The notes: generated by a model not told the origin, from the sequence alone. DNA of 64,000 bases from Crocinitomicaceae bacterium (GCA_014762645.1 JABURP010000087.1:1-64000), one strand, 5' to 3'. Counted from the stretch's first letter, positions 47,649-61,423 are shown. Numbers and translations: made by a program.

Positions 47649-48762
47649 AACGTAAATGGGTGCCTTTTCCAGGCGACGAGTAATAATTAAATTTTGATTT
47701 TATTGCATTTAAACGTGACTTTATATTATCAATCCCGTTGCCGGCAGAAATCTTTGATAAATTAAATCCTTTACCATTGTCTGAGAGACTGAATAATATC
47801 TGATGATTGTCTTTTTTTATCTTCAGGTTAATTTTAGTCGCATTGGCGTGTTTAAGGCTATTATTTATAAATTCCTGAAATACCCTAAAAATAATTTTCT
47901 CGTCGTCTTTTGGAATGTAAAGTTCTTCATTTTCAAAGTCATAAACAATTTCTTGTAATGGTTTTAACCGTTTACAAAGTTCTTCTAGCGCAAACAAGAG
48001 GTTAACATTTTCCAACGATTTGGGCAAAAGGTCATAGGACAAATCCCGGATGTTTTGCAGAGCCTGATCAAGGACGTCTTTACATTCATTGAATATTTCC
48101 GTGTGCTCTTTGGATTCATCCATATAATCCAGCGTGTCAATGTACATCTTCACCGCATTTAATTCTTGCCCCAAAGAATCATGAAGGTCATAGGCCAGTT
48201 GATGTCTGACTTTTTCTTCTGCGGTGACAATAGCACGTAAGGTTCGGTTTTCTTGTTTAATTTTTTCCGTAATATCTTTAGCAATAAAGAGATATCCTCC
48301 CTGGTAACCGTCTGTGTAAATCTGAGATATGGTGCAACTGGCAGGAAAAGTAGATGCTTGATTTACAGAAATATCTGAATCAAAAGTTATGGAACCGGGT
48401 TGGTTATCAGATTGATTTAAGTCCTTATCAGGAATAGATTTTACAAAAGCCAGCAATTGCATGCCTTTGAGTGCTTCTTTATGAACACCCAATTTTTCAC
48501 TGGCCATGTCGTTGGTATCGGTAATAACAAGATTGCTATCCGTTACTATTAATATGTCGGAAATTGCATCAAATAGGCTTTCAAAGTAATCCCGCGAAAT
48601 GGTAGTTTGCTCAAGTTCTTCCCCTAACATATTAATACCCGAAACAATAATGTCCCGGGCATCAAGATTTTCGGATTGTGTAAGCCTCCGAGAGAAATCC
48701 CGATTCGCAAAGGCTATGATTACCTCCTGTATCTCTTCTATATCAACAACTTCTGCCTTCAT
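47623..48762 (-). CDS. PAS-containing sensor histidine kinase, NarX/HisKA_3 type
   Basis: A 379-residue soluble kinase. An N-terminal stretch (FANRDFSRRL ... INMLGEELEQTTISRDYFESLFD) has a HAMP-like feel, followed by PAS (about 65-170). The HisKA_3 box is RHQLAYDLHDSLGQELNAVKMYI, with the phospho-His in DLHD. HATPase: VFQEFINNSLKHANATKI, DNGKGFN and GNGIDNIKSRL. No transmembrane helix is visible, so the signal is sensed inside the cell or through the STAS-like partner. It overlaps the STAS gene by 4 bp and its regulator by 26 bp. Confidence 0.92.
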   Translation of the reverse strand: MKAEVVDIEEIQEVIIAFANRDFSRRLTQSENLDARDIIVSGINMLGEELEQTTISRDYFESLFDAISDILIVTDSNLVITDTNDMASEKLGVHKEALKGMQLLAFVKSIPDKDLNQSDNQPGSITFDSDISVNQASTFPASCTISQIYTDGYQGGYLFIAKDITEKIKQENRTLRAIVTAEEKVRHQLAYDLHDSLGQELNAVKMYIDTLDYMDESKEHTEIFNECKDVLDQALQNIRDLSYDLLPKSLENVNLLFALEELCKRLKPLQEIVYDFENEELYIPKDDEKIIFRVFQEFINNSLKHANATKINLKIKKDNHQILFSLSDNGKGFNLSKISAGNGIDNIKSRLNAIKSKFNYYSSPGKGTHLRFVYTNEKD

Positions 48763-49130
48763 TTATATTGTGATAGCCATTCGATCGCCTTTTCACGATT
48801 ATTAAATGCTCTAACAATAGTATATTGTTCCTTAAGATTAACACGAATAAGAAAATTTGCCATGAAAGAAGTTAGCATTGAGTCAGTGAAAATAGCAGCC
48901 GCTGAAATATATTCCGCGCCTTCCTTTGAACCAAAGTAATTCCTAGCTTCTTTCGTCATTTTATTGACACCTCGTGCATCAACAAATATTGGGCGATTTT
49001 TATATTCACTAATAACTTTTCTTGTTTCTACAACTTCTTTTGCAACTTCAAGATCTATTATTATACCTTCTTTATACTTTCCAAATACAATTCCGTTTTC
49101 AATATAAAAATCTGCAGGTGAGTCATCCAT
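48759..49130 (-). CDS. STAS-like protein, paralogue 3, in the oxoamine-synthase operon
   Basis: A 123-residue protein: FYIENGIVFGKYKEGIIIDLEVAKEVVETRKVISEYKNRPIFVDARGVNKMTKEARNYF (split here for description: a strand pair, a helix, then a PIFVDARG strand), ending AFNNREKAIEWLSQYK. It shares the family layout of the proteins at 5642 and 44455. It overlaps the upstream synthase by 8 bp and the kinase by 4 bp. Its place between enzyme and kinase suggests a signal-transfer or switch role, which is inference. Confidence 0.7.
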   Translation of the reverse strand: MDDSPADFYIENGIVFGKYKEGIIIDLEVAKEVVETRKVISEYKNRPIFVDARGVNKMTKEARNYFGSKEGAEYISAAAIFTDSMLTSFMANFLIRVNLKEQYTIVRAFNNREKAIEWLSQYK

Positions 49131-51543
49131 TAAACGTCATTTTAACACTGATATTGCTGAGCAATTCCATGTTATACTGGTCTTTTACACTAACAAAAGC
49201 CTTTTTGGAAATTTGCTCTGCTCCAAATTTACGTTTTTCTAAATCAGCAGACAAGCCCATGCAAATCTCATTTTTATTTAGTTCGATTGCCCTGGAAACA
49301 GCCTGAAATAAAATTTGTTTATAGAGTTTAAATTTTTGATTATAGTCGTAATTCAGACCTAATAATACCGGATAATACCTGTTTTTTGATTTATAGCAAC
49401 AGCCTATCCCTACCAATTTATTATCTATATACAAACAAATGTATTCCCATTGATTGCTTTCAGACATCAACTTCATTATTTTTTCAGGATAAGGATAGAG
49501 ATTAATACCAAAATTTACATTGGAAACATTTCTATAAAGCTCGTAACCATCTTGAATCTCATTAAACGAAAGCTCTGATTTAAACTTAACTTCAATATCA
49601 GGTAGATAGGTGAACACATCATCACGGATATGCTTTCTCTTCTTTCCGCTTAGATTATCATAATACCGTTCAATCGAACAAGGCAACGATTTAACAATAT
49701 TTGTATTGGGCATATCAATACTAAAAAATCCTAACTCATGGAAAACATGATTTATGTCTTCATCATCTAAGGCGAAATCTCTAAGAATAATACTATTACA
49801 CTGTTCTTTGTCCTCAATATTATAAACTGTTTCGATCATAAGACCAATGGCATTTTTCCAATGTATATTTTGCCTTTGAATGAATAAATGATCTCCTTCA
49901 GTGAACAAGCTCCCCATAGATAGAGTTTTGCTGCTCAGGTAATACTTGTTATTTTTTCTTTCATCTTCAACAATCTTTGAGATATCCGACTGAGCCAACA
50001 AATCATCCTTAAACAAACCTGAAGTGAAGAATGTTGCCAGGATTAGTTCATTTCCTTCTGTTACAAGTATGTAATGGAATTTCCAGTTTTCTTCCGGGAG
50101 ATCATTCCCTGAAAATGCGCGCTCCATAAGTTCCAGCGCTTCCCAATCAAAGTTTCCTTTATCTGCAAAAGCTGAATCCCAGAGTTTCTTGTCAATATCT
50201 TTAATCGTTTCAAAAGTTTGAACCGTTAAATCTGATTCTGTTTCTTTTAGAATAGGCTCTTTAACTTTCTCTTCTTCAATTAAAGGCAATCGGAAAGCCT
50301 TTCGTACATCATTGAGCGTTTTCCCCTCTTCTTCCAGTGCTTTTGGATGATGATATATAATTGCTTCACAAAAAGATCGGATCTGTTCTTCTGTGTTGTG
50401 ATTGGTAATGGTAAATCTCAATCCGGTATTTTTCACCGGAACTGCAGGAAACATACCAATATTCATATAATAGCCTTCGTCAATAAGGCGTTTATTAAAG
50501 TTATACCCAACATTAGGTTGACCTGTTCCAATAAAATAAATTGGTGTTTCCGGGTTGGATAACACTGGTATATCTGTTTGAGAAAGAATTGAGTTTGCAA
50601 GACTCAATTTATTCTTTAATTCGTTTTGTATCTCATAAATCTCATCAGATAGATGAAGTTTAGCAGCACCTATTGCCGCCCCTAGCATTGGTGGTGGCAT
50701 TGGATGAGAATAAGCTAGTGGTCCACCGTGTAATATTAGTTTATCATACCATGATTTCTCTGGAAATACAGCAATTCCTCCCATTGTTCCAAAACCTTTG
50801 GCAAGCGTTGAAATATACATGGTCTTCTCATTCTTCAAACAATCTTCATAGATCCTTCCGCAACCATTCTTCCCATACCAACTCATTCCATGTGCATCAT
50901 CCACATAAAGGTGCAGCTTGTCGTATTTTGCCATCAGTGCATTTATATCTTCTATTGGGGCCGTATCACCGTACATGGAATAAACGCCGTCAATCACATA
51001 CCAGATTTTGTCATGTTTATCGTATAGAGACTTTACTTTGTGTTCAAGCATTTCCAGGTTGCTGTGCCTGATCATTTCAATAGGAACACCTTTTGCAGCC
51101 ATTTGCTGTGCAATTGTCTGCATACTAATATGTGCTTGTTGGTCTAAAATGATGGCGTCATTATGCCCCACAATTATCGGTATTACGCTCATGTGAGCCA
51201 TTGTAGTAGAAGTAAATGCTATAACGCTCTTCCCTAAAAAGATTTCAGACAAGTATTCTTCCAGTTTGTAATTCTCTTTTGAAACGAGATAAGTTCTTGA
51301 CACTGAAAATTGTGTGCCGTAACGTCTGGTGTAATCAAGTGATTCCTGAATGACTTTAGGATGTGTTTCCAACCCCATATATCCACACGTACCGAAATTC
51401 ACATGTTCTTTATCATTTATTAGAACTGTATCCCCCTTCCATTCAGACCCCTCATATTCTAACTGTAATACTCCTCTTTTTTTAGCTTCACTTAATATGT
51501 CATTAATTGTGTCTACAAAATTGTGATGATTGATTTTTGCCAT
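49123..51543 (-). CDS. Alpha-oxoamine synthase fused to a GNAT-like acyltransferase domain
   Basis: An 806-residue fusion. Residues about 1-410 form a fold-type I PLP enzyme of the alpha-oxoamine synthase group (BioF, KBL, serine palmitoyltransferase, CqsA). Visible are NFGTCGYMGLETHPKV, DQQAHISMQ (ring-stacking His), YVDDAHGMSWYGKNGCG (Asp near 214) and STLAKGFGTMGG (PLP Lys near 249). These enzymes condense an acyl-CoA with an amino acid. Residues about 430-806 are a divergent GNAT/FemAB-like region (KRKHIRDDV ... NKLVGIGCCY ... YPVLLGLNYDYNQKFKLYKQILFQAVSRAIE). First gene of a four-gene overlapping operon with STAS, kinase and regulator. Confidence 0.88.
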   Translation of the reverse strand: MAKINHHNFVDTINDILSEAKKRGVLQLEYEGSEWKGDTVLINDKEHVNFGTCGYMGLETHPKVIQESLDYTRRYGTQFSVSRTYLVSKENYKLEEYLSEIFLGKSVIAFTSTTMAHMSVIPIIVGHNDAIILDQQAHISMQTIAQQMAAKGVPIEMIRHSNLEMLEHKVKSLYDKHDKIWYVIDGVYSMYGDTAPIEDINALMAKYDKLHLYVDDAHGMSWYGKNGCGRIYEDCLKNEKTMYISTLAKGFGTMGGIAVFPEKSWYDKLILHGGPLAYSHPMPPPMLGAAIGAAKLHLSDEIYEIQNELKNKLSLANSILSQTDIPVLSNPETPIYFIGTGQPNVGYNFNKRLIDEGYYMNIGMFPAVPVKNTGLRFTITNHNTEEQIRSFCEAIIYHHPKALEEEGKTLNDVRKAFRLPLIEEEKVKEPILKETESDLTVQTFETIKDIDKKLWDSAFADKGNFDWEALELMERAFSGNDLPEENWKFHYILVTEGNELILATFFTSGLFKDDLLAQSDISKIVEDERKNNKYYLSSKTLSMGSLFTEGDHLFIQRQNIHWKNAIGLMIETVYNIEDKEQCNSIILRDFALDDEDINHVFHELGFFSIDMPNTNIVKSLPCSIERYYDNLSGKKRKHIRDDVFTYLPDIEVKFKSELSFNEIQDGYELYRNVSNVNFGINLYPYPEKIMKLMSESNQWEYICLYIDNKLVGIGCCYKSKNRYYPVLLGLNYDYNQKFKLYKQILFQAVSRAIELNKNEICMGLSADLEKRKFGAEQISKKAFVSVKDQYNMELLSNISVKMTFNG

Positions 51544-52250: not shown

Positions 52251-52955
52251 CTAGTAGGCCCAATATTTTGGGTGTTCCCAGTTCTTTTTCAATTTGTATT
52301 TCAATCCAACGCTTAGCGCTTCAAAAGACCATAATGAACCTTCAAAATTAGCCCATAACTGATCTGTTAGTCTGAAGTTTAATCCTATTGGTGTGAACCC
52401 TGTATACATTTTAAAATTACCTGGTAGCAACCTTCTCATCTGATCGTTTTGAATCATGTCAAAGTTCATGTCATTATAAACCAGCCCTACGTTTAATTGC
52501 ATGTATCCCTCAATATTTTTTCTTCTAAAGAAATTGAGTTTAGGCTTAATAAATACAAATGCTTGTTGGTTTTGAAGGTTGGCGCCATTCAGTTTAATAT
52601 TATTTCTTGTATAACCAATGGTGTATGCCAGGCTCATTATCTCATCCAGGTAAATTTCGTGACTGAAGGACAGGCTCGGCCTGACCCGGGGAAAGATAAA
52701 TGATTCTGTTTCTGGGTTTCGGTGATCTCTAAGAACTTGCTCAACATAGAAGTTTTCAGTTGAAATTCCAGATGAAAATTTGATAACATGTTTGTAGTTA
52801 TAAACATTTGCTCTGTGTGCAATTTCAACTTGTTCTGCAGCATAAGCTGAATCTACGTTAATATACTCTGATGCTTCTACCGGTTTTTGTCCAAATGAAA
52901 CTTTTACAGTTAATCCGAAAAGTAAAATTAGTGCTAGTGTCAATGTTGTCTTCAT
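52251..52955 (-). CDS. Outer-membrane beta-barrel-like protein, LytTR regulon
   Basis: A 234-residue exported protein (signal KTTLTLALILLFGLTVKVSFG). The mature part alternates hydrophobic and polar residues in amphipathic strands (IEGYMQLNVGLVYNDMNFDM, PIGLNFRLTDQLWANFEGSL, EALSVGLKYKLKKNW), typical of a small porin-like barrel. No family recognised. Its promoter carries two LytTR-like half-sites at 53022-53030 and 53043-53051 (see that entry). Confidence 0.7.
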   Translation of the reverse strand: MKTTLTLALILLFGLTVKVSFGQKPVEASEYINVDSAYAAEQVEIAHRANVYNYKHVIKFSSGISTENFYVEQVLRDHRNPETESFIFPRVRPSLSFSHEIYLDEIMSLAYTIGYTRNNIKLNGANLQNQQAFVFIKPKLNFFRRKNIEGYMQLNVGLVYNDMNFDMIQNDQMRRLLPGNFKMYTGFTPIGLNFRLTDQLWANFEGSLWSFEALSVGLKYKLKKNWEHPKYWAY

Positions 52956-52980: not shown

Positions 52981-53051
52981 CTAAGCTACGGCTCAAATAC
53001 CGCCTATTTTAGTGGCGGTTTCCCAACGTTCAGGTTGAATATCCCAACGGG
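52981..53051 (-). promoter_or_regulatory. LytTR-type promoter A (drives 52251 gene)
   Basis: Read on the minus strand, half-sites CCCGTTGGG (53043-53051) and AACGTTGGG (53022-53030) are direct repeats 21 bp apart. Both follow the LytTR consensus [TA][AC][CA]GTTN[AG][TG] with at most one deviation. The proximal one is separated by exactly 33 bp from TAGCTTAG (52981-52988), a one-mismatch -7 element. No -33 TTTG is present, as expected for an activator-dependent promoter. Confidence 0.7.
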
Positions 53052-53170
53052 TTAATCCCCCGTATATCAAGTGAATGGAGGTGTTGTCTTGATGAATAAT
53101 CAGGGTAGTCGAAATGAGTTTTTAGATTACTTACTGGCAGGTGCTGGGAGTATATATTGTATACATATAA

Positions 53171-53204
53171 AAAGAAGAAGCCGGGTTAAACTCAACCCGG
53201 CTTC
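53171..53204 (-). terminator. Terminator of the T9SS type A cargo gene
   Basis: A perfect 11-bp stem GAAGCCGGGTT/AACCCGGCTTC (53177-53187 with 53194-53204) with a 6-nt loop, followed by TTCTTTTT on the minus strand. Confidence 0.85.
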
Positions 53205-53260
53205 ATTCATGAACACTGACACAACTAACTATTCATTTTAAGACAATAGTGTTCTAACTT

Positions 53261-55603
53261 TTAACGATATAATACTTTGTTTGTCTGGTTTAGTCCATTG
53301 TCAGATTGGATAACTACAATTAATAGCTGTTGTGGAATATCTGACAATTGTACCTGGTCGTAATTTGCTTGTATATTTTGAGTGTGTAGTAGTTGACCAT
53401 TTACATTGTAAAGCTTAACACTAGCGTTGCTGTCGTGTCCTTCAATATTCAACACTTGATTGTTTAGGTACATCTGAATCATTTCATGTTCAATTTCACC
53501 AGCATTAAGTGTAGACATCACCACTATGTTTTTATCTTCCATGACATAGCAGTCAGGACTTTGGTAAGCGTATAGCGTTGCCGTATATACACCTGCACTG
53601 TAAAACTGAACAGTTAGATCTGTTTGAGTACTTGTTGGGTTTGTTTCAACTTCCCATGTGTAGTAATCTGCATTCTGAGATGTGTTGATAAGATCTACTT
53701 CAACAAATTCATTTGATATATAAAGAGTGTCAGCTGACAGATCGAAGTCTGCAATAATTGGTGACGGTTGATCAATCACGATTGTGTCTATCGTCAATCC
53801 GCAAAGTTGATCGTCAGTTTCCACCATGTAGATTCCCTGACCAAGGTTATCGAATGATGTAATCTGATTTACATTTGTTTCTTGTTGAATTACCCCACCC
53901 CACTGGTCAGTTAATGTTACATCATATAACGTATTAGTGTTTTTACCAACGTTAATATGACCGTCATTTGTATTATAGCAAGTAGCATTATATCCTTCCA
54001 CGTACAACGGCGCTCCAACTTTGATTCGAAACCTTGCAACCGTAGTAGTATCTGACAAGTCAACTGTAAGCTGCATGTTGTCATATAAGGGATATGTGTT
54101 ACCCGTAAACATGTCTTCTAAAATCAGACACTGGCTATCTGTAAAGCTTGATACATCTTCAAATGTTAAAGTATGTTGTCCTGATACACCTGCTTTTGCG
54201 TAAAGTAGTACTTCTGCTTCTTGTACTGGTATCTGGTTGATTGAATATATTTCTGATCCACCGTCAATTTTTGTGTAAGCAACCGGATTATACCCATTTG
54301 ACTCGTTGAATTTGTACGCATCCATGCTGCCGTCAAATCCCATTGTAGCATTTGGGTTTGCTTTTAAAACAGTTTGATCCGAAGCATTACCTTTTGTCAA
54401 AGTAATCGACATATAAGTAGGTCCGTTCTGCTGTTTTAAAAATGTTCCGTTGTCAGCTGATTTTGCACTTTGAGGTATTACCAATTCAGCGTTTGTAGAA
54501 GTTGCTTTCACCCAGAAAGACTGACAAGAAGAAATAATGTTTGATCCACCATTTGTAGAAATTCCATCTACATAAGTTGCGTAAGCTTCCAGATTAGGAT
54601 TCCAGATATATACTGCGTTGTTTACCCCAGTTCTAGTTATATCCGGGCTGTCAAAATCAATAGCAGATGCAAAAGGATTAGCAACGTATGACCATCCGTC
54701 ATCATCTGATCCTGAACTTGTATAACTTACAGGTAGTGAAACGCTTCCACTGTTTACTTCACCTTTAAAATCTACGGTGTTACCGTACAAGCTTGCTGTT
54801 CCAATGTATGCCATAAAGCCTTGTCCGGCACCTATAGTGTCATTTGCTGAATTAGGAGCGTAATATCCATAAGAACCTAAGCCACTCACTGTCTCATCAT
54901 AGAAGTATATCGAAACAAAAGGATAGCTTGGATAAGTTGAACCTGTATATCCTGATGTCCACATATCATCATTTAATTGTGCAAGTGTGGCATTTTTAAC
55001 TGGGCTCCCTAAGAATCTCCAATCGGATGAATCAACCTGAATGCTCTTTCTAACCGTAACATCTCCAGAAATAGACCCGACAATTGGCCCAATTGAACCT
55101 TCATTGTTAGGTCCAGACAGTAGCGTCAATGCATCATTCGTTGAAAATTGACCAGATAAAACATTAAGTCTGTGCTCAATAAAAGTTGTTCCATTTGATA
55201 TTTGAACCCCCGCTGCATTATCAATATCCAGGTTGTAAAAGTTTTGCGTTCCTGAAATTGTCTGTTGCTGAGTTCCTTTAAATGAAACTTTACTTGTTCC
55301 CGGCTCAATAAGTCCGTTGTTTGTAAAATCTCCGGTTATAACAACGCTATAGATTCCAAAATCAACTGTTGCCCCGGAATTGATAGTAAAGTCATCAATA
55401 CTAACATCATCATCCAAAACAAGTTGATAGGTTGAGCTATCTATTGCTATTGGGTCTCCGGATCCTGGTATCTGGTTTAATGACCAGTTTCCTGCTGTAC
55501 TCCAGTTGTTATTTACTGTCCCTTGCCAGTGATTCACTGTCTGGGCATGATTGATTGAGAATGAACTCAATGCTAAAGTTAAAGTATACACTAATCGTCT
55601 CAT
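53261..55603 (-). CDS. Secreted surface protein with T9SS type A sorting domain
   Basis: About 780 residues from ATG 55603 (MRRLVYTLTLALSSFSINHAQ, a good signal peptide); the longer frame from 55636 adds charged residues before it. The N-terminal part (NHWQGTVNNNWSTAGNWSLNQ, IPGSGDPIAIDS, VVITGDFTNNGLIEPGTSKV) is a repetitive beta-helix-like region. Ig/PKD-like domains follow (IIADFDLSADTLYISNEFVEV, YTWEVETNP). The final about 75 residues (VLNIEGHDSNASVKLYNVNG, LLHTQNIQ, DQVQLSDIPQQ, NKVLYR) are a type A T9SS sorting domain. Possible adhesin. Its promoter has a LytTR half-site 33 bp from its -7 box. Confidence 0.88.
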   Translation of the reverse strand: MRRLVYTLTLALSSFSINHAQTVNHWQGTVNNNWSTAGNWSLNQIPGSGDPIAIDSSTYQLVLDDDVSIDDFTINSGATVDFGIYSVVITGDFTNNGLIEPGTSKVSFKGTQQQTISGTQNFYNLDIDNAAGVQISNGTTFIEHRLNVLSGQFSTNDALTLLSGPNNEGSIGPIVGSISGDVTVRKSIQVDSSDWRFLGSPVKNATLAQLNDDMWTSGYTGSTYPSYPFVSIYFYDETVSGLGSYGYYAPNSANDTIGAGQGFMAYIGTASLYGNTVDFKGEVNSGSVSLPVSYTSSGSDDDGWSYVANPFASAIDFDSPDITRTGVNNAVYIWNPNLEAYATYVDGISTNGGSNIISSCQSFWVKATSTNAELVIPQSAKSADNGTFLKQQNGPTYMSITLTKGNASDQTVLKANPNATMGFDGSMDAYKFNESNGYNPVAYTKIDGGSEIYSINQIPVQEAEVLLYAKAGVSGQHTLTFEDVSSFTDSQCLILEDMFTGNTYPLYDNMQLTVDLSDTTTVARFRIKVGAPLYVEGYNATCYNTNDGHINVGKNTNTLYDVTLTDQWGGVIQQETNVNQITSFDNLGQGIYMVETDDQLCGLTIDTIVIDQPSPIIADFDLSADTLYISNEFVEVDLINTSQNADYYTWEVETNPTSTQTDLTVQFYSAGVYTATLYAYQSPDCYVMEDKNIVVMSTLNAGEIEHEMIQMYLNNQVLNIEGHDSNASVKLYNVNGQLLHTQNIQANYDQVQLSDIPQQLLIVVIQSDNGLNQTNKVLYR

Positions 55604-55633
55604 AATTATAGTTTTTTGTGTTTTTGTTTGAGA

Positions 55634-55703
55634 CAAATTTCAGGGTAAACCTCTGGAGGACAGCGGTGAGATTTCCCAACGCACAGGATTACTTTCCAAG
55701 CGT
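55634..55703 (-). promoter_or_regulatory. LytTR-type promoter B-minus (drives 53261 gene)
   Basis: On the minus strand TGCGTTGGG (55675-55683) fits the LytTR half-site with one deviation. It lies exactly 33 bp from GAAATTTG (55634-55641), a one-mismatch -7 box. A degenerate second copy (ACGCTTGGA, 55695-55703) lies 20 bp further upstream. Confidence 0.6.
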
Positions 55704-55739
55704 GGTTTTCAATTTCCGTTCGATAACTACGCGATTTTT

Positions 55740-55852
55740 TACGTTAATTTGTGAAATCGCTACGTTAATTTGTGAAATCGCTACGTTGGGAAACTGAGAT
55801 AGGCTCTTATAAACGTGTTAAGGGTTAACTCTACGGTTAATAATTACATTTA
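55740..55852 (+). promoter_or_regulatory. LytTR-type promoter B-plus with three phased half-sites (drives 55919 gene)
   Basis: TACGTTAAT at 55740-55748 and 55761-55769, and TACGTTGGG at 55782-55790, all match the LytTR consensus and are 21 bp apart. The first two lie in an exact 21-bp tandem repeat (55740-55781). The -7 box TACATTTA (55845-55852, one mismatch) is 54 bp from the last half-site, that is 33 plus one 21-bp period. Confidence 0.65.
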
Positions 55853-55918
55853 CATTGGTGTTACACGGGGGAATTGGATTGGACAGTATTATTTGAACAA
55901 TGGCAAAAACATGTGTAG

Positions 55919-57409
55919 ATGAGTAATCACGAAATAAGTCTTACCAAACCCGAACTGACTGTACTCCATTTGGAGGATAATCCATTTGATGCCCGGTTGG
56001 TTTCTTTTTGTCTTGAAGAAGCATTTGATGATTTAACGCTTTACCAGGTTAAGACCAGAAAAGAATTTCTTAAAGGACTTGAATCTGAATCTTTTGATAT
56101 CATTCTCTCTGATTATAACGTTCCTGAATTTAATAATACGGATGCGCTAGACCTTGCCAGTGCAATATGTCCGGACGTACCTTTTATATATGTCACCGGT
56201 GCATTGGGTGAAAAAAAAGCTGTCAATGTATTAAAAGCGGGAGCTACGGATTATGTAATCAAAGGAAATCTTGACAAGCTCCCTTTAGCTATCATCAGAG
56301 CGTTGAAAGAAGCTGAGCAACGAGAACAAAAAGCCTTAATTGAAGAGCAAATCAAAAGTCAGAATAGACTTTTTAAAGAACTGCAACGTGTTGCGGAAAT
56401 TGTAATTTGGGAATATAATTTTGAGGATGAAGAAACATATTGGTCTGAAGAAGCCGCCAGTATTTTTGGAATGGAATATGAAGATTTACCTGGTTTTTTA
56501 GATTCGATTGAATATTATAAGGATGAATTTAAATCAAAAATAAGAGATGTTGTTTCAGCTTCACGTTCATGGAAGATGAAATGGGATCTTGATGCTGTTC
56601 TCATCACAGACTTAGGAGAAGAAAAGTGGGTGCGATTAATTGGATATCCGGTAATAGAAAATGAGAGAATTGTCAAATTTCGTGGGTTGATCATGGATAT
56701 CGATTCGAGAAAACAAATCAGTTTGGAGTTGAAAGAAAAGCACATTGAATCACTGAAGTATCAATCTATGCTTTTGAGCACCCAAATTAATCCGCACTTT
56801 ATTTTTAATGCACTTAATTCGGTGCAATTGTATATCCTGGATCAAAATGTAGAGCCTGCACTAAATTTCCTCTCAGATTTTTCGGTACTGATGAGAGGCA
56901 TGTTAAACAACTCCATGAAAAGCTATATTCCTCTTAAAGCTGAAATTGAATGGCTCAGTAAGTATATGGACATTGAAAAAATCAGGTTTTCTGACAAATT
57001 TGATTACAGTTTTGAAATTGCAGATGACGTTTCTGTTGAAGAGTTCATGATTCCGACAATGTTATTACAGCCTTTTGTAGAGAATGCAATATTACATGGT
57101 ATTGGTCCAATGGAGTCAGGAGGAATGATAACGATATCCTTTGAAAGAGATGAAGAATATATTATGTGTATCATAGATGATAACGGGGTTGGAAGAGAAG
57201 AGGCAGAAAAGCTTAAAAGCACAAAAGAAGAAGTCAAGCGCCATAAGTCGTACGGAGTAAATATAACAAAAACCAAAATTGAGGTATTGAGCGATTTGGA
57301 AAGCAAGAAATTTGATTATCACGTTGAGGATAAAATGGGGAAAGATGGTACACCAGAAGGAACGGCCATACATATTTCCTTCCCGTTAATGTTAAAGCAG
57401 GATAATTGA
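55919..57409 (+). CDS. Receiver-PAS-LytS-type histidine kinase
   Basis: A 496-residue soluble hybrid. N-terminal receiver (about 10-130): VLHLEDNPFDARLV, phospho-Asp in DIILSDYNVPEF, Thr in IYVTGAL, Lys in YVIKGNLDK (KG instead of KP). A PAS-like domain covers about 150-270. LytS-type kinase: STQINPHFIFNALNSVQLYIL with the phospho-His, then the N-box QPFVENAILHGIGPM and DDNGVGREEAE. It is the likely active kinase for the LytTR regulators encoded convergently, stops 12 bp apart. Its promoter has three LytTR half-sites, suggesting feedback. Confidence 0.9.
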   Translation: MSNHEISLTKPELTVLHLEDNPFDARLVSFCLEEAFDDLTLYQVKTRKEFLKGLESESFDIILSDYNVPEFNNTDALDLASAICPDVPFIYVTGALGEKKAVNVLKAGATDYVIKGNLDKLPLAIIRALKEAEQREQKALIEEQIKSQNRLFKELQRVAEIVIWEYNFEDEETYWSEEAASIFGMEYEDLPGFLDSIEYYKDEFKSKIRDVVSASRSWKMKWDLDAVLITDLGEEKWVRLIGYPVIENERIVKFRGLIMDIDSRKQISLELKEKHIESLKYQSMLLSTQINPHFIFNALNSVQLYILDQNVEPALNFLSDFSVLMRGMLNNSMKSYIPLKAEIEWLSKYMDIEKIRFSDKFDYSFEIADDVSVEEFMIPTMLLQPFVENAILHGIGPMESGGMITISFERDEEYIMCIIDDNGVGREEAEKLKSTKEEVKRHKSYGVNITKTKIEVLSDLESKKFDYHVEDKMGKDGTPEGTAIHISFPLMLKQDN

Positions 57410-57420
57410 TCGATTCACAA

Positions 57421-58230
57421 TTAGTTGTCTGAGATATTTAATTGCTTCAAAACTACTTCCGTTTGCTTTAGTTTGGTCAGTAATAATTGTCTTCTTCTAA
57501 CGGCAACTTCTAATTTAGTTCCATCAGATAAATGAACCATTGGACCATCTTCGTTCGTATATTTTGTGATACAATCCAGGTTGACAATGTGAGATTTATG
57601 AATTCTGTAGAAATCAGATGAAGGCAGAAGCGCTTCAACATCTTTAAGCAATTTTGACACCTTGATTTGGTTTCCTTTGACAAAATGAACAATGGTATAT
57701 GTTTTATCCGCTTCACACCATAGGATATCATCTATTTGAATAATCTGAATTCCATCATCCGTACTAAGTGCTATTTTTTCAAAGTCAAGTTTACTGTCTA
57801 GACTACTTTCTTTGAGAACCTTGAATTTTTTGAGGTTTTGGTCCGGTAGTTTATTTCGTTCTTTTATGCGACTTTTAGCCTTGGCTATCGCCAGTTTTAA
57901 TTCCTTAAGATTTATAGGTTTCAGCAAGTAATCCAACGCTGCGTACTTAATTGCTTTCAACGCATACTCGGAATGAGCTGTTGTAAATACCACTACAAAT
58001 GGTGGTGCCTCGAATTTATCCAGTAGCTTAAAACCATCATTACCTGGCATTTCAATATCCAGAAATACCAGGTCCGGTGTGTTGTCTTCAATAAGTTCAA
58101 TTGCTTCCTCTACAGAAGAAGCTAATCCTGTCACCTTCACATCCGGACAAAATCCATGAATCATCTTTTCCAATACCACCTGGTTTTGCGGTTCGTCATC
58201 TACTATAATACAACTTAATAACTCGCTCAT
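57421..58230 (-). CDS. LytTR-family response regulator 1
   Basis: About 269 residues from ATG 58230 (MSELLSCIIVDDE); the frame reaches 58278 but the extra 16 residues do not belong to the receiver fold. Receiver: phospho-Asp in DLVFLDIEMPGNDGF, Thr in VVVFTTAHSEYALKAI, Lys in DYLLKPINLKE. LytTR DNA-binding domain (about 160-258): GIQIIQIDDILWCEADKTYT, FYRIHKSHIVNLDCITKY and VAVRRRQLLLTKL. LytTR proteins bind direct repeats with a 21-22 bp period, which are present at nearby promoters. Distal gene of the operon, 150 bp after the second regulator. Confidence 0.94.
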   Translation of the reverse strand: MSELLSCIIVDDEPQNQVVLEKMIHGFCPDVKVTGLASSVEEAIELIEDNTPDLVFLDIEMPGNDGFKLLDKFEAPPFVVVFTTAHSEYALKAIKYAALDYLLKPINLKELKLAIAKAKSRIKERNKLPDQNLKKFKVLKESSLDSKLDFEKIALSTDDGIQIIQIDDILWCEADKTYTIVHFVKGNQIKVSKLLKDVEALLPSSDFYRIHKSHIVNLDCITKYTNEDGPMVHLSDGTKLEVAVRRRQLLLTKLKQTEVVLKQLNISDN

Positions 58231-58317
58231 AAATCTGTAATTAACGTCGTTGTCTAATTCGTTTGAGTTGTATGTCAACAGAAAGTTACGAATAATGAGC
58301 CTGATATAAGAATTTAA

Positions 58318-58339
58318 CGGGAAAATACCGTATTTCCCG
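58318..58339. repeat. 22-bp palindrome between the two LytTR genes
   Basis: CGGGAAAATAC followed by CGTATTTCCCG: the arms are reverse complements apart from one extra A. No T-run follows on the minus strand (TTAAATTC), so it is a weak terminator at best. It may be an operator or an mRNA processing hairpin that sets the ratio of the two regulators. Confidence 0.5.
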
Positions 58340-58384
58340 CAATGCTTATTTTAACGAAATGATTGATTATGAATGGTTAAGAAT

Positions 58385-59137
58385 TTAACTTATCCCGAGG
58401 GCCTGGACCACATCATCTTTCCTTCGAACCGCAACGTTCACAAGAGATCCATCCGACATCACCAAATCGCCACCTTTTCCCTTTATATATTTTACAACAT
58501 GATTAAGGTTGACAATATTTGATTTATGAACTTTGAGAAAGTTTGATTGAGAAAGGATATCCTGATATTCAGACATGGGTTTTGAAATATGAACCTTTTT
58601 ATTATTAACCATGTGAAACTTACAGTAAGCTCTATCGGCTTCACACCGTATAATATCCTTGACATCAAAAAACTCCATACCGTCAGCAGTAGGCAATGCA
58701 ATTTTGGAAAAATTGAACTCTTTGTCCTGGCGGTTTGTTCTTAGTACATCTATTTGTTGTTGAACAGATGAATTATCAGACTTTGACTCGATACATTTGT
58801 TGACAGCTAGTTTGAGTTCCTCTACGTTAATAGGTTTGAGCAAATAATCCATTGCAGCATATTTAATGGCTTTAATTGCATAAACTGCATGCGCGGTTGT
58901 AAAGATGACTTTGAAGTTTGTATTTTCAAGCGATTCAAGTAAATCAAAGCCACTGCCACCAGGCATTTCAACATCCAAAAAAACCATCTCTGGCTTTTTT
59001 TCTTCTATTAGGGTTTTGGCTTCCTTGATGTTAGATGCTATCCCTTTAATCGACACATTAGGACAGAACATCTCCAACATTTTTGCTATGGATTCTCTTA
59101 CCGGTTTTTCATCATCAACGATTACGCAACTTATCAT
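58385..59137 (-). CDS. LytTR-family response regulator 2
   Basis: A 250-residue regulator. Receiver: ISCVIVDDEKPVRES, phospho-Asp in EMVFLDVEMPGGSGF, Thr in VIFTTAHAVYAIKAI, Lys in DYLLKPINVEE. LytTR domain (about 145-245): GMEFFDVKDIIRCEADRAYC, FLKVHKSNIVNLNHVVKY, VNVAVRRKDDVVQAL. Very similar to the regulator at 57421, so the pair arose by duplication; both receivers keep their phosphorylation residues. It starts 9 bp after the pseudokinase gene. Confidence 0.94.
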   Translation of the reverse strand: MISCVIVDDEKPVRESIAKMLEMFCPNVSIKGIASNIKEAKTLIEEKKPEMVFLDVEMPGGSGFDLLESLENTNFKVIFTTAHAVYAIKAIKYAAMDYLLKPINVEELKLAVNKCIESKSDNSSVQQQIDVLRTNRQDKEFNFSKIALPTADGMEFFDVKDIIRCEADRAYCKFHMVNNKKVHISKPMSEYQDILSQSNFLKVHKSNIVNLNHVVKYIKGKGGDLVMSDGSLVNVAVRRKDDVVQALGIS

Positions 59138-59146
59138 ATAGTCTAA

Positions 59147-59812
59147 TTAGTGATCCAAGAGCAACGGGAATGACAATATAGTTTTTGTTCCCATTGGCTC
59201 ACCATTCGGACTATGAATATAGTCAACTTCTATATTATATTCACCTTCGTAGTTATTGAAAATGTCTTTTCTTACTTCATCCAACAAAGCCAAAGTTTCT
59301 TTTTGACCTGTTTTAAGATGCTTTTCTTTGAATGCATGAGCTTCCGGGTTTTGGTCAACAATATCGCATCCTACCGTTTCATCATCTATTTTATAAAAAT
59401 GAAGTTCAAGTGAGCCATTGGAGAAGTGCTTACTAAAACGGTTCTCTATTTGTAGGTCAACGCAATGATGAATCAACATGGGGGGAATTAACAGTGTATC
59501 TGGATCTAATCCGTCATTCAGGTATAACTCCACATTAAATTCATTAGATGATGAGTTTGCAATTAATGACACGTACCCCTGTAGAAAGTCCAATTCCTCC
59601 AAAACGCGGATGTATTTTAAAGTTGTATGTTTTACCGCCATCCGGCTTAAATTGTTAAACCTCGTAAGCAAGTTCAAAACGGCTTCGGTATCGTTTTTCA
59701 ACAAATTATGTTGTACTACTGTCAGCCCATGCTGAATGAGGTTTGACCAAAATTTGGAGCAATAGTATATGGGTAGGCTTCCTTTATTAAGTGTTGTGTT
59801 TTTATTTTTCAT
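59147..59812 (-). CDS. Degenerate LytS-type histidine kinase (probable pseudokinase)
   Basis: A 221-residue soluble protein colinear with the LytS kinase core. KFWSNLIQHGLTVVQHNLL stands where INPHFIFNALNSVQ should be; AVLNLLTRFNNLSRMAVKHT matches ALNFLSDFSVLMRGMLNNS; LEELDFLQGYVSLI matches the E..WL.KY..IE helix; IPPMLIHHCVDLQIENRF stands in place of IPTMLLQPFVENAILHG. The phospho-His of NPHF and the N-box Asn are lost and no DNGxG motif is seen, while the overall length is kept. It overlaps the SprB-repeat gene by 11 bp. It probably acts as a binding partner of the regulators or of the true kinase. Confidence 0.75.
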   Translation of the reverse strand: MKNKNTTLNKGSLPIYYCSKFWSNLIQHGLTVVQHNLLKNDTEAVLNLLTRFNNLSRMAVKHTTLKYIRVLEELDFLQGYVSLIANSSSNEFNVELYLNDGLDPDTLLIPPMLIHHCVDLQIENRFSKHFSNGSLELHFYKIDDETVGCDIVDQNPEAHAFKEKHLKTGQKETLALLDEVRKDIFNNYEGEYNIEVDYIHSPNGEPMGTKTILSFPLLLDH

Positions 59813-60368
59813 AGTTAATATTCACTTCTTCGTATTCAAAAATTTGCACCATTTCTTCCAGTTTACAGTCGGATGCGTTACATATTTGAATGGTGTAGAT
59901 ACCCGGCTGAAGAGAGGTGACAGTTTCCCAATCGGTCATTTCTCCATTAACTGAAAAGTCATACGTATTAATGAAATCAAGTGGAGCACATGGGTCTTTA
60001 TGTGTAATATGATCAAGAATCCATTGGTGATCTTCCATATTTCGTTGATCTTCCAGTTGAATTGAAGTAAACGTACGGTTACCTGCGGCATCAATTACAT
60101 CAACAAAATATACGCCGCTTGCCAAATTTGTGGCGTTGGTTGAATATTGATTGGGAAATGTGTTCCATATACAGGTATAGGGAGCTTGCCCACCTACTAT
60201 TTCAATTGAGATAGCTCCGTCCTGTACTTCAGGACAACTGGGTTTAATAAGTTCCACCACCTTAATGGAGAGTGTTGAACTATTGCTCGTGGTATCCACG
60301 CTAGGATCATTTGTGGCGAATGACGCTATGCCAATTAGCATCAGTGCGGTTAAAAGTGTCGTTTTCAT
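59802..60368 (-). CDS. Secreted SprB-repeat protein, first gene of the LytTR operon
   Basis: A 188-residue exported protein (signal KTTLLTALMLIGIASFA). It has one clear SprB repeat: IKPSCPEVQDGAISIEIVGG, QAPYTCIWN, TNATNLASGVYFVDVIDAAGN. A second weaker unit runs from about 120 (FSVNGEMTDWETVTSLQPGIYTIQICNASDCK). SprB repeats occur in gliding adhesins. There is no T9SS sorting domain, so it may stay in the periplasm. It overlaps the pseudokinase gene by 11 bp, and its promoter has LytTR half-sites. Confidence 0.82.
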   Translation of the reverse strand: MKTTLLTALMLIGIASFATNDPSVDTTSNSSTLSIKVVELIKPSCPEVQDGAISIEIVGGQAPYTCIWNTFPNQYSTNATNLASGVYFVDVIDAAGNRTFTSIQLEDQRNMEDHQWILDHITHKDPCAPLDFINTYDFSVNGEMTDWETVTSLQPGIYTIQICNASDCKLEEMVQIFEYEEVNINYEK

Positions 60369-60390
60369 TGTGTGTTCTTTTTTGTTAGTA

Positions 60391-60461
60391 CAAAACTATG
60401 TCAACTGTGATGGTTGAACAGGTGTTCTTTTCCCTGAGTAGAGAATCAATTTCCCAACGTT
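60391..60461 (-). promoter_or_regulatory. LytTR-type promoter C-minus (drives the LytTR operon)
   Basis: On the minus strand AACGTTGGG (60453-60461) fits the consensus fully. A weaker copy TACTCAGGG (60432-60440) lies 21 bp closer to the gene and is separated by exactly 33 bp from the perfect -7 element TAGTTTTG (60391-60398). The arrangement implies autoregulation of the operon. Confidence 0.65.
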
Positions 60462-60500
60462 ACACTATTCTTTTCCAGAAGTTTATACCCCATCTTAAAA

Positions 60501-60571
60501 CACAGTAGGAAAGCCAAGTTCAACGTTGGGTAACTCACTATTATTAATTGTACAATGCTCCTATACTTTTA
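60501..60571 (+). promoter_or_regulatory. LytTR-type promoter C-plus (drives the SpoIIE gene)
   Basis: AACGTTGGG (60522-60530) fits the consensus fully and lies exactly 33 bp upstream of TACTTTTA (60564-60571), a one-mismatch -7 element. A degenerate copy (CACAGTAGG, 60501-60509) is 21 bp further upstream. Transcription should begin near 60578, which favours ATG 60590 as the start codon. Confidence 0.65.
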
Positions 60572-60589
60572 CCTCATAAACCACTAATT

Positions 60590-61423
60590 ATGGACACTCA
60601 CATATCACTTAGAAAGATGTTTACAACGAATCAATATCAGCAGGATGACCTATTTAATCCACGGGATTCTGTACGAGACATTCTGGATGGCATAGATTAC
60701 GCTTTTCACATCCAAAAAAGTATACTACCAGAAGGAAGCAGTTTAAACAAGCATTTTGAGCAGTTCATATTGTTTAAGCCAAAAGAAGTAGTAGGTGGAG
60801 ACTTTTATTGGATGGATGAACTCAACAGTAAATACATTAGTATTTGTGCGGATTGTACCGGTCACGGTGTTCCAGGCGCGCTTTTAACCATGTTGGGATA
60901 TCAAATGATAGAAAATATCACTCGGGATATGAGAATTTTTGATCCGGGAGAGATATTGAATCATCTGCACCGGCAATTCTTACGCATATTTTCTTCAGAA
61001 GGGGCTCTGACACACCAGGGTATGGATGTATCAGTTTGTGTTTATGATTTAGATAAAAAAACATTGGCCTATGCCTGTGCCAAGAGCAATATTCTTATGG
61101 AGATAAACAATGAACTTTACCGACTTAAAGGCAGTCATGTATCTATTGGAGATCCTTTCAATAAAGAACATCTATATACTACAAAGTATGTGTCCATAAA
61201 TCAACCAGCCTGGATGTTTCAGTTCACAGATGGGATTATCGATCAGTTTGGTGGGGAGAGAGATAAAAAATTCAAGTTAACCAACCTCAAAAAACTATTG
61301 GATACAAACTTAACACTACACTCCAAAGAATACGGTGAGACCATTTGGGAGTCTCTGAAATTCTGGAAAGAATCCAAGGATCAGACAGACGATATTACTT
61401 TAATTGGAACCCGATTGAAATGA
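60590..61423 (+). CDS. SpoIIE/PP2C-type serine phosphatase
   Basis: About 277 residues from ATG 60590 (MDTHISLRKMF); the upstream ATG at 60548 would precede the predicted transcript start. After a short N-terminal helix (YAFHIQKSILP) comes the phosphatase domain: LFKPKEVVGGDFYWMD, CADCTGHGVPGALLTMLG, FQFTDGIIDQFGGERDKKF and QTDDITLIGTRLK, with the metal-binding Asp residues. There is no sensor domain. In other bacteria such phosphatases act on anti-sigma antagonists (STAS proteins); three STAS-like proteins are encoded in this window, but the link is speculative. Confidence 0.9.
   Translation: MDTHISLRKMFTTNQYQQDDLFNPRDSVRDILDGIDYAFHIQKSILPEGSSLNKHFEQFILFKPKEVVGGDFYWMDELNSKYISICADCTGHGVPGALLTMLGYQMIENITRDMRIFDPGEILNHLHRQFLRIFSSEGALTHQGMDVSVCVYDLDKKTLAYACAKSNILMEINNELYRLKGSHVSIGDPFNKEHLYTTKYVSINQPAWMFQFTDGIIDQFGGERDKKFKLTNLKKLLDTNLTLHSKEYGETIWESLKFWKESKDQTDDITLIGTRLK

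Follow-up and report, generated by a model that had tools for sequence, protein, structure and literature searches.

The locus examined here lies in the window, a 64,000-nucleotide stretch of DNA from Crocinitomicaceae bacterium (GCA_014762645.1 JABURP010000087.1:1-64000), and combines two LytTR response regulators with a LytS-type kinase, a SpoIIE-type phosphatase and secreted proteins. A sequence-only reading had proposed that short repeated half-sites, placed at a fixed distance from a -7 box in five promoters (A, B-minus, B-plus, C-minus and C-plus), make this locus a local LytTR regulon. The question is whether these repeats are more than a chance pattern and, if so, which regulator acts through them and in which direction.

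Results

Genes of the locus

Both regulators, encoded at 57421 and 58385, contain a receiver followed by a LytTR domain above the gathering score, the domain order of LytTR response regulators; the phospho-Asp, Thr and Lys residues are invariant in the receivers of the LytTR response regulators. The two proteins are paralogues within one locus and are 46% identical. The kinase encoded at 55919-57409 scored 74.8 bits with PF06580 and has intact NPHFIFN and VENAI motifs, so that a PF06580 kinase stands beside a regulator as in LytS/LytTR two-component systems. The C-minus operon encodes the secreted protein, the pseudokinase, LytTR1 and LytTR2; it lacks the gene order that characterizes the LytTR Regulatory Systems (LRS), in which a membrane inhibitor comes after the LytTR regulator. 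The phospho-His and N-box motifs are lost in the pseudokinase and likewise in its counterpart in a related genome, G171 (L120:6365-7069), and the protein thus seems to be retained for a purpose.

The protein downstream of promoter A gave no match in Pfam or NCBIfam, and a 30% identical homologue adjoins the orthologous LytTR gene in L071. Its description as a barrel protein agrees with an all-beta predicted structure, but the model is of low confidence (pLDDT 43). The large protein downstream of B-minus is likely to be a T9SS surface protein as had been suggested, although its sorting-domain matches (E 0.001) are below the cut-off.

Two neighbouring genes were also recorded. A DUF7793 (SpoIIAA-like) protein is encoded at 48759-49130 (minus strand), and further DUF7793 proteins at L069:18051-18446 and L071:14247-14684; in these three genomes they lie near LytTR/SpoIIE or LytTR loci, and the protein is possibly a partner-switch protein for the SpoIIE phosphatase. 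The gene at 49123-51543 (minus strand), which encodes a BioF/serine-palmitoyltransferase-like enzyme fused to a GNAT domain, adjoins the DUF7793 gene and a PAS-HisKA_3 kinase.

Table 1. Genes, half-sites and -7 boxes of the LytTR locus, numbered as in the window
Feature	Position	Strand	Details
Predicted target of promoter A	52251..52955	-	Secreted 234-aa protein, possibly beta-barrel
Promoter A -7 box TAGCTTAG	52981..52988	-	33 bp past proximal half-site; 1 mismatch to TAnnTTTG
Promoter A half-sites	53022..53051	-	AACGTTGGG 53022-53030, CCCGTTGGG 53043-53051; 21-bp period
Predicted target of promoter B-minus	53261..55603	-	Large secreted protein, probable T9SS cargo; start MRRLVYTL at 55603
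Promoter B-minus -7 box GAAATTTG	55634..55641	-	33 bp past proximal half-site
Promoter B-minus half-sites	55675..55704	-	TGCGTTGGG 55675-55683, CACGCTTGG 55696-55704
B-plus array	55740..55790	+	TACGTTAAT, TACGTTAAT, TACGTTGGG; three TACGTT half-sites, perfect 21-bp period
Candidate B-plus -7 box TACATTTA	55845..55852	+	Uncertain; 54 bp after TACGTTGGG
REC-PAS-LytS-type histidine kinase	55919..57409	+	PF00072, PF06580
LytTR response regulator 2 (paralogue)	57421..58230	-	PF00072 75.9 bits, PF04397 66.3 bits
LytTR response regulator 1	58385..59137	-	PF00072 82.3 bits, PF04397 49.5 bits
Degenerate LytS-type kinase (pseudokinase)	59147..59812	-	In C-minus operon
First gene of C-minus operon	59802..60368	-	Secreted protein, weak SprB repeat (PF13573 E 1e-4, below cut-off)
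Promoter C-minus -7 box TAGTTTTG	60391..60398	-	Exact TAnnTTTG, 33 bp past proximal half-site
Promoter C-minus half-sites	60432..60482	-	TACTCAGGG 60432-60440, AACGTTGGG 60453-60461, weak ACTTCTGGA 60474-60482; 21-bp period
Promoter C-plus half-sites	60501..60530	+	CACAGTAGG 60501-60509, AACGTTGGG 60522-60530
Promoter C-plus -7 box TACTTTTA	60564..60571	+	33 bp past proximal half-site
Predicted target of promoter C-plus	60590..61423	+	SpoIIE-type (PP2C) phosphatase; PF07228 65.9 bits

Half-sites and boxes of the promoters

Every half-site and box in the window was located by script after direct reading of the sequence, and the coordinates given by the sequence-only reading all proved correct. 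At B-minus the one half-site that it had listed was found in place, but the distal half-site had been missed. The results showed that A, B-minus, C-minus and C-plus each combine a pair of half-sites at a 21-bp period with a TAnnTTTG-like box, and that the gap of 33 bp claimed between the two elements is exact in all four. The boxes match TAnnTTTG at five or six of six positions: the C-minus box is exact (6/6), whereas the other boxes have one mismatch. From the box position mapped in Flavobacterium psychrophilum (-12 to -5; PMC9723704), leaders of about 14-26 nt are predicted for these four promoters.

The word originally proposed for the half-site, [AT]ACGTT(GGG/AAT), fits some of the half-sites but not A-distal, B-minus, C-minus-proximal or C-plus-distal. 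It was replaced by (A)CGTTnGGAAA, which takes in the distal half-sites and those of the relatives, suggesting that the common core is better written in this form. The C-minus proximal half-site fits through its GGGAAA part only, and this part is regarded as a genuine portion of the half-site because the relatives show it. Two 9-bp direct repeats with 11-13 bp between them, the arrangement of LytTR sites, were found at all five promoters, and in four of the five the proximal repeat lies 33 bp upstream of the box, within the 32-34 bp known for LytTR sites and -10/-7 boxes. Strict 9-N12-9 matches to [TA][AC][CA]GTTN[AG][TG] occur in the B-plus array only; the other pairs deviate at one or more positions, yet the ACGTTnGG core agrees.

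B-plus differs from the other four. There is no recognizable half-site 33 bp before its candidate box (proximal score -12.8 with the composite matrix described below), so that a 33-bp promoter with a degenerate proximal half-site is unsupported, and the explanation of its 54-bp gap as 33+21 is arithmetic, not evidence. B-plus is thus unproven as a promoter of the regulon. The evidence for the claimed membership is good for the operon of LytTR1, the gene of the SpoIIE phosphatase and those of the large secreted and the small outer-membrane-like proteins, but membership is unproven for the REC-PAS-LytS kinase downstream of B-plus. If the B-plus box is of the sigma-A type as in F. psychrophilum, a leader of about 62 nt would be predicted. 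The 21-bp unit TACGTTAATTTGTGAAATCGC is perfectly duplicated in tandem at 55740-55781 (plus strand), which looks like a recent gain of a LytTR half-site.

Chance controls and whole-genome search

CGTTGGGWWA occurred 31 times in the genome compared to 25 times in the reversed control; six of the 31 fall within these 7.6 kb, and the matches elsewhere were rejected as regulon members because most are inside open frames and the count equals that of the control. Pairs of half-sites gave a different result: the half-site consensus alone found four 21-bp pairs in the window and none in 240 kb of reversed loci. The mean box match was 5.25 of 6 at 33 bp compared to 1.61 (sd 0.71) over spacings of 10-80 bp, a peak that is not independent by itself because the earlier reader had chosen the box position; independent support for this position comes from the relatives.

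The genome (4.23 Mb) was then searched for 21-bp pairs with up to three mismatches and without regard to a box, giving nine pairs compared to four in the control. Four of the nine are those of this locus; all four are intergenic and are followed by a box at 33 bp. The remaining five fall within open frames of 264-602 aa, and the box match at that distance is 1-3 of 6. Pairs with a box are confined to this locus, and the regulon therefore looks local in this genome. When TGGGWAA-N-TAnnTTTG was searched over four genomes, the excess at 33 bp was weak (8/90, with about 3 expected), since one half-site is too short a pattern on its own; all three matches inside LytTR loci were at 33 bp.

Orthologous loci in relatives

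The search of 399 genomes from the order gave orthologues of the 58385 regulator in 10 others: G171 at 69% identity and, at 51-56%, G066, G055, G116, G022, G112, G122, G084, G010 and G092. A composite matrix (half-site, 21, half-site, 33, box) was used, from which the loci of G066, G112, G122, G084 and G092 were held out; G084, G112 and G122 belong to one genus, so that the held-out loci are not fully independent. The composite was present in nine of the 10 orthologous loci with scores of 21-41, compared to a control maximum of 14.9 (544 kb, both strands), and the boxes (TAAATTTG, TAGGTTTG, TACATTTG, TAAGTTTG, GAAGTTTG or AAAATTTG) lie exactly 33 bp from the half-site. G022 has a clear 21-bp pair, whose best box lies 44 bp away.

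In G171 a single intergenic region has the composite on each strand, facing a homologue of the SpoIIE phosphatase on one side and a pseudokinase-LytTR operon on the other, the same divergent arrangement as C-plus/C-minus in the window. A homologue of the large secreted protein lies downstream of a composite of the same type in L126. Recurrent targets are SpoIIE proteins (the window, G171, G010 and G002), LytTR operons and, in G092, a homologue of the large surface protein. Direct observation covers the sites with their two spacings, their confinement to this locus within this genome, and the conservation of sites and targets near orthologous regulators.

Order-wide scan

With up to three mismatches, the composite was found 55 times in the 399 genomes compared to twice for the reversed pattern. 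When the distance between half-site and box was left free (31 values) in genus g18 of the same family, 21 matches were obtained, six at 33 bp, five at 32 bp and three at 36 bp; the expectation that the 33-bp spacing is commoner than others was therefore borne out, with 11 of the 21 at 32-33 bp. When the distance between half-sites was left free (31 values, 399 genomes), 10 of 16 matches were at exactly 21 bp. Taken together, the whole-genome search, phylogenetic footprinting and order-wide scan lend good support to a local LytTR regulon of fixed 21-bp and 33-bp geometry.

The genes downstream of the order-wide matches mostly encode secreted proteins, kinases, receivers, SpoIIE proteins and LytTR regulators, and start codons are usually 23-60 bp from the start of the box. 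A -33 TTG is present in only two of 13 spacers. Outside the orthologous loci, 13 of 47 match regions have a LytTR gene within about 10 kb compared to about 3 expected, a figure that is our own estimate from gene counts (4-33 LytTR genes per genome) and region lengths. These counts are of PF04397 matches in 18 genomes and show that LytTR regulators are numerous in this group.

The regions L177-L223, mainly from genus g18, show composites scattered over several contigs per genome and often far from a LytTR gene. The site is therefore not diagnostic of a 58385-type regulator, and the composite is private neither to this locus nor to this regulator; in g18 genomes it appears dispersed.

Discussion

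The locus is likely to be a self-regulating LytTR two-component regulon in which the 58385 regulator directly activates sigma-A promoters. The neighbourhood and the intact motifs suggest that the LytS-type kinase 55919 phosphorylates the 58385 regulator, and possibly its paralogue 57421 too. Two LytTR monomers of the activated regulator would bind head-to-tail on (A)CGTTnGGAAA half-sites, which, being 21 bp or two helical turns apart, would share one face of the DNA. The proximal half-site, at about -54 to -46 from the predicted start, precedes the -7 box by 33 bp, and from there the bound regulator would recruit sigma-A RNA polymerase to promoters that have no -33 element. The predicted outputs are its own operon (secreted protein, pseudokinase, LytTR1 and LytTR2) and the divergent SpoIIE phosphatase, together with the large secreted surface protein and the small outer-membrane-like protein. 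We infer from sequence that the regulator binds these sites, that it activates instead of repressing, and that it contacts RNA polymerase. The regulators, the phosphatase and the secreted surface proteins are probably switched on jointly through sites at one exact promoter distance.

The conserved sites accompany orthologues of 58385, and this regulator is most likely the activator of the regulon. Control of the same LytTR sites by its paralogue 57421 or by a LytTR protein encoded elsewhere is unlikely, even though the genome has 16 PF04397 matches, relatives carry the composite away from any LytTR gene, and the B-plus half-sites (TACGTTAAT) differ as if another regulator reads them: this locus is the only place in the window's genome where pairs are followed by a box, and the composite stands at nine of the 10 loci with 58385 orthologues, most of which have no second adjacent LytTR gene.

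The direction of regulation is unreadable from the half-sites themselves, and they might be repressor operators of the same regulators. This is quite improbable, as the sites do not overlap the -33/-7 region but precede it by one fixed distance, in promoters without a -33 element, which is the geometry of an activator, and the layout matches LytTR systems that auto-activate (PMC6193735). That an order-seeking reader had picked chance patterns might be argued from a proposed word that fits only some half-sites and from a promoter A box that had been found by prediction, but it is hardly credible in view of the composite in held-out orthologous loci, the order-wide ratio of 55 to 2 and the unconstrained peaks at 32-33 bp and 21 bp.

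The direct activation by the 58385 regulator proposed here can be compared with known systems. In Table 3 of PMC6193735, the distance from the proximal repeat to the -10 hexamer is, by addition, 32-34 bp in 20 of 20 promoters (nine at 33 bp, eight at 32 bp and three at 34 bp), most repeats being 9-12-9 and 10 bp upstream of a -35 element that lies about 17 bp from the -10; among the 20 are two Bacteroides promoters with 34 bp to TATCTTTG. The repeats and distance in the window match these values, and the 33-bp rule is therefore known LytTR geometry. The LRS (HdrRM, BrsRM and relatives; PMC6193735), which have been shown to auto-activate, resemble the window in their 9-bp direct repeats 12 bp apart, in the 32-34 bp to the -10 and in the autoregulation proposed here. 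However, they pair a LytTR protein with a membrane inhibitor, whereas in the window the regulator carries a receiver domain and its gene neighbours encode a LytS kinase, a pseudokinase, a SpoIIE phosphatase and secreted proteins; the half-sites also differ (ACGTTnGGAAA compared to ACCACTTAC in LRS), and the window locus has several targets.

In the LytS/LytTR two-component systems (such as YpdA/YpdB, PMC4847170; VirR; AgrA), a receiver-LytTR regulator and a LytS-type kinase occur together as in the window, and the sites are likewise direct repeats, 9-11 nt long with 11-13 nt between them. Compared with these systems, the targets in the window are Bacteroidota surface proteins and the promoter carries a TAnnTTTG -7 box. 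We found no experimentally tested LytS/LytTR member of the window's lineage in the literature, and in the open-access literature no LytTR target site worked out in these bacteria except the two Bacteroides promoters (PMC6193735). The -7 box is shared with flavobacterial sigma-A promoters (PMC9723704), but the window promoters have no consistent -33 element and instead show a predicted upstream activator site at a fixed distance. Promoter type, T9SS domains and relatives all point to the Bacteroidota, probably the Flavobacteriales. The present analysis adds the GGAAA extension of the half-site, the multi-promoter local regulon with surface protein and phosphatase targets, and its spread through the order.

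Relative to LytTR sites, the Bacteroidota -7 box sits where the -10 box does in other phyla. With a site model of exact spacing that has been checked against relatives, regulons can be predicted and simple reporter tests designed. It is conceivable, at slightly less than even chances, that the composite, with its pair of ACGTTnGGAAA half-sites at a 21-bp period followed after 33 bp by TAnnTTTG, serves the order as a general and predictive promoter grammar that several LytTR paralogues read. If so, such regulons would be local in the window's genome and spread along the chromosome in another genus of its family, and regulons of secreted and signalling proteins could be called from sequence alone.
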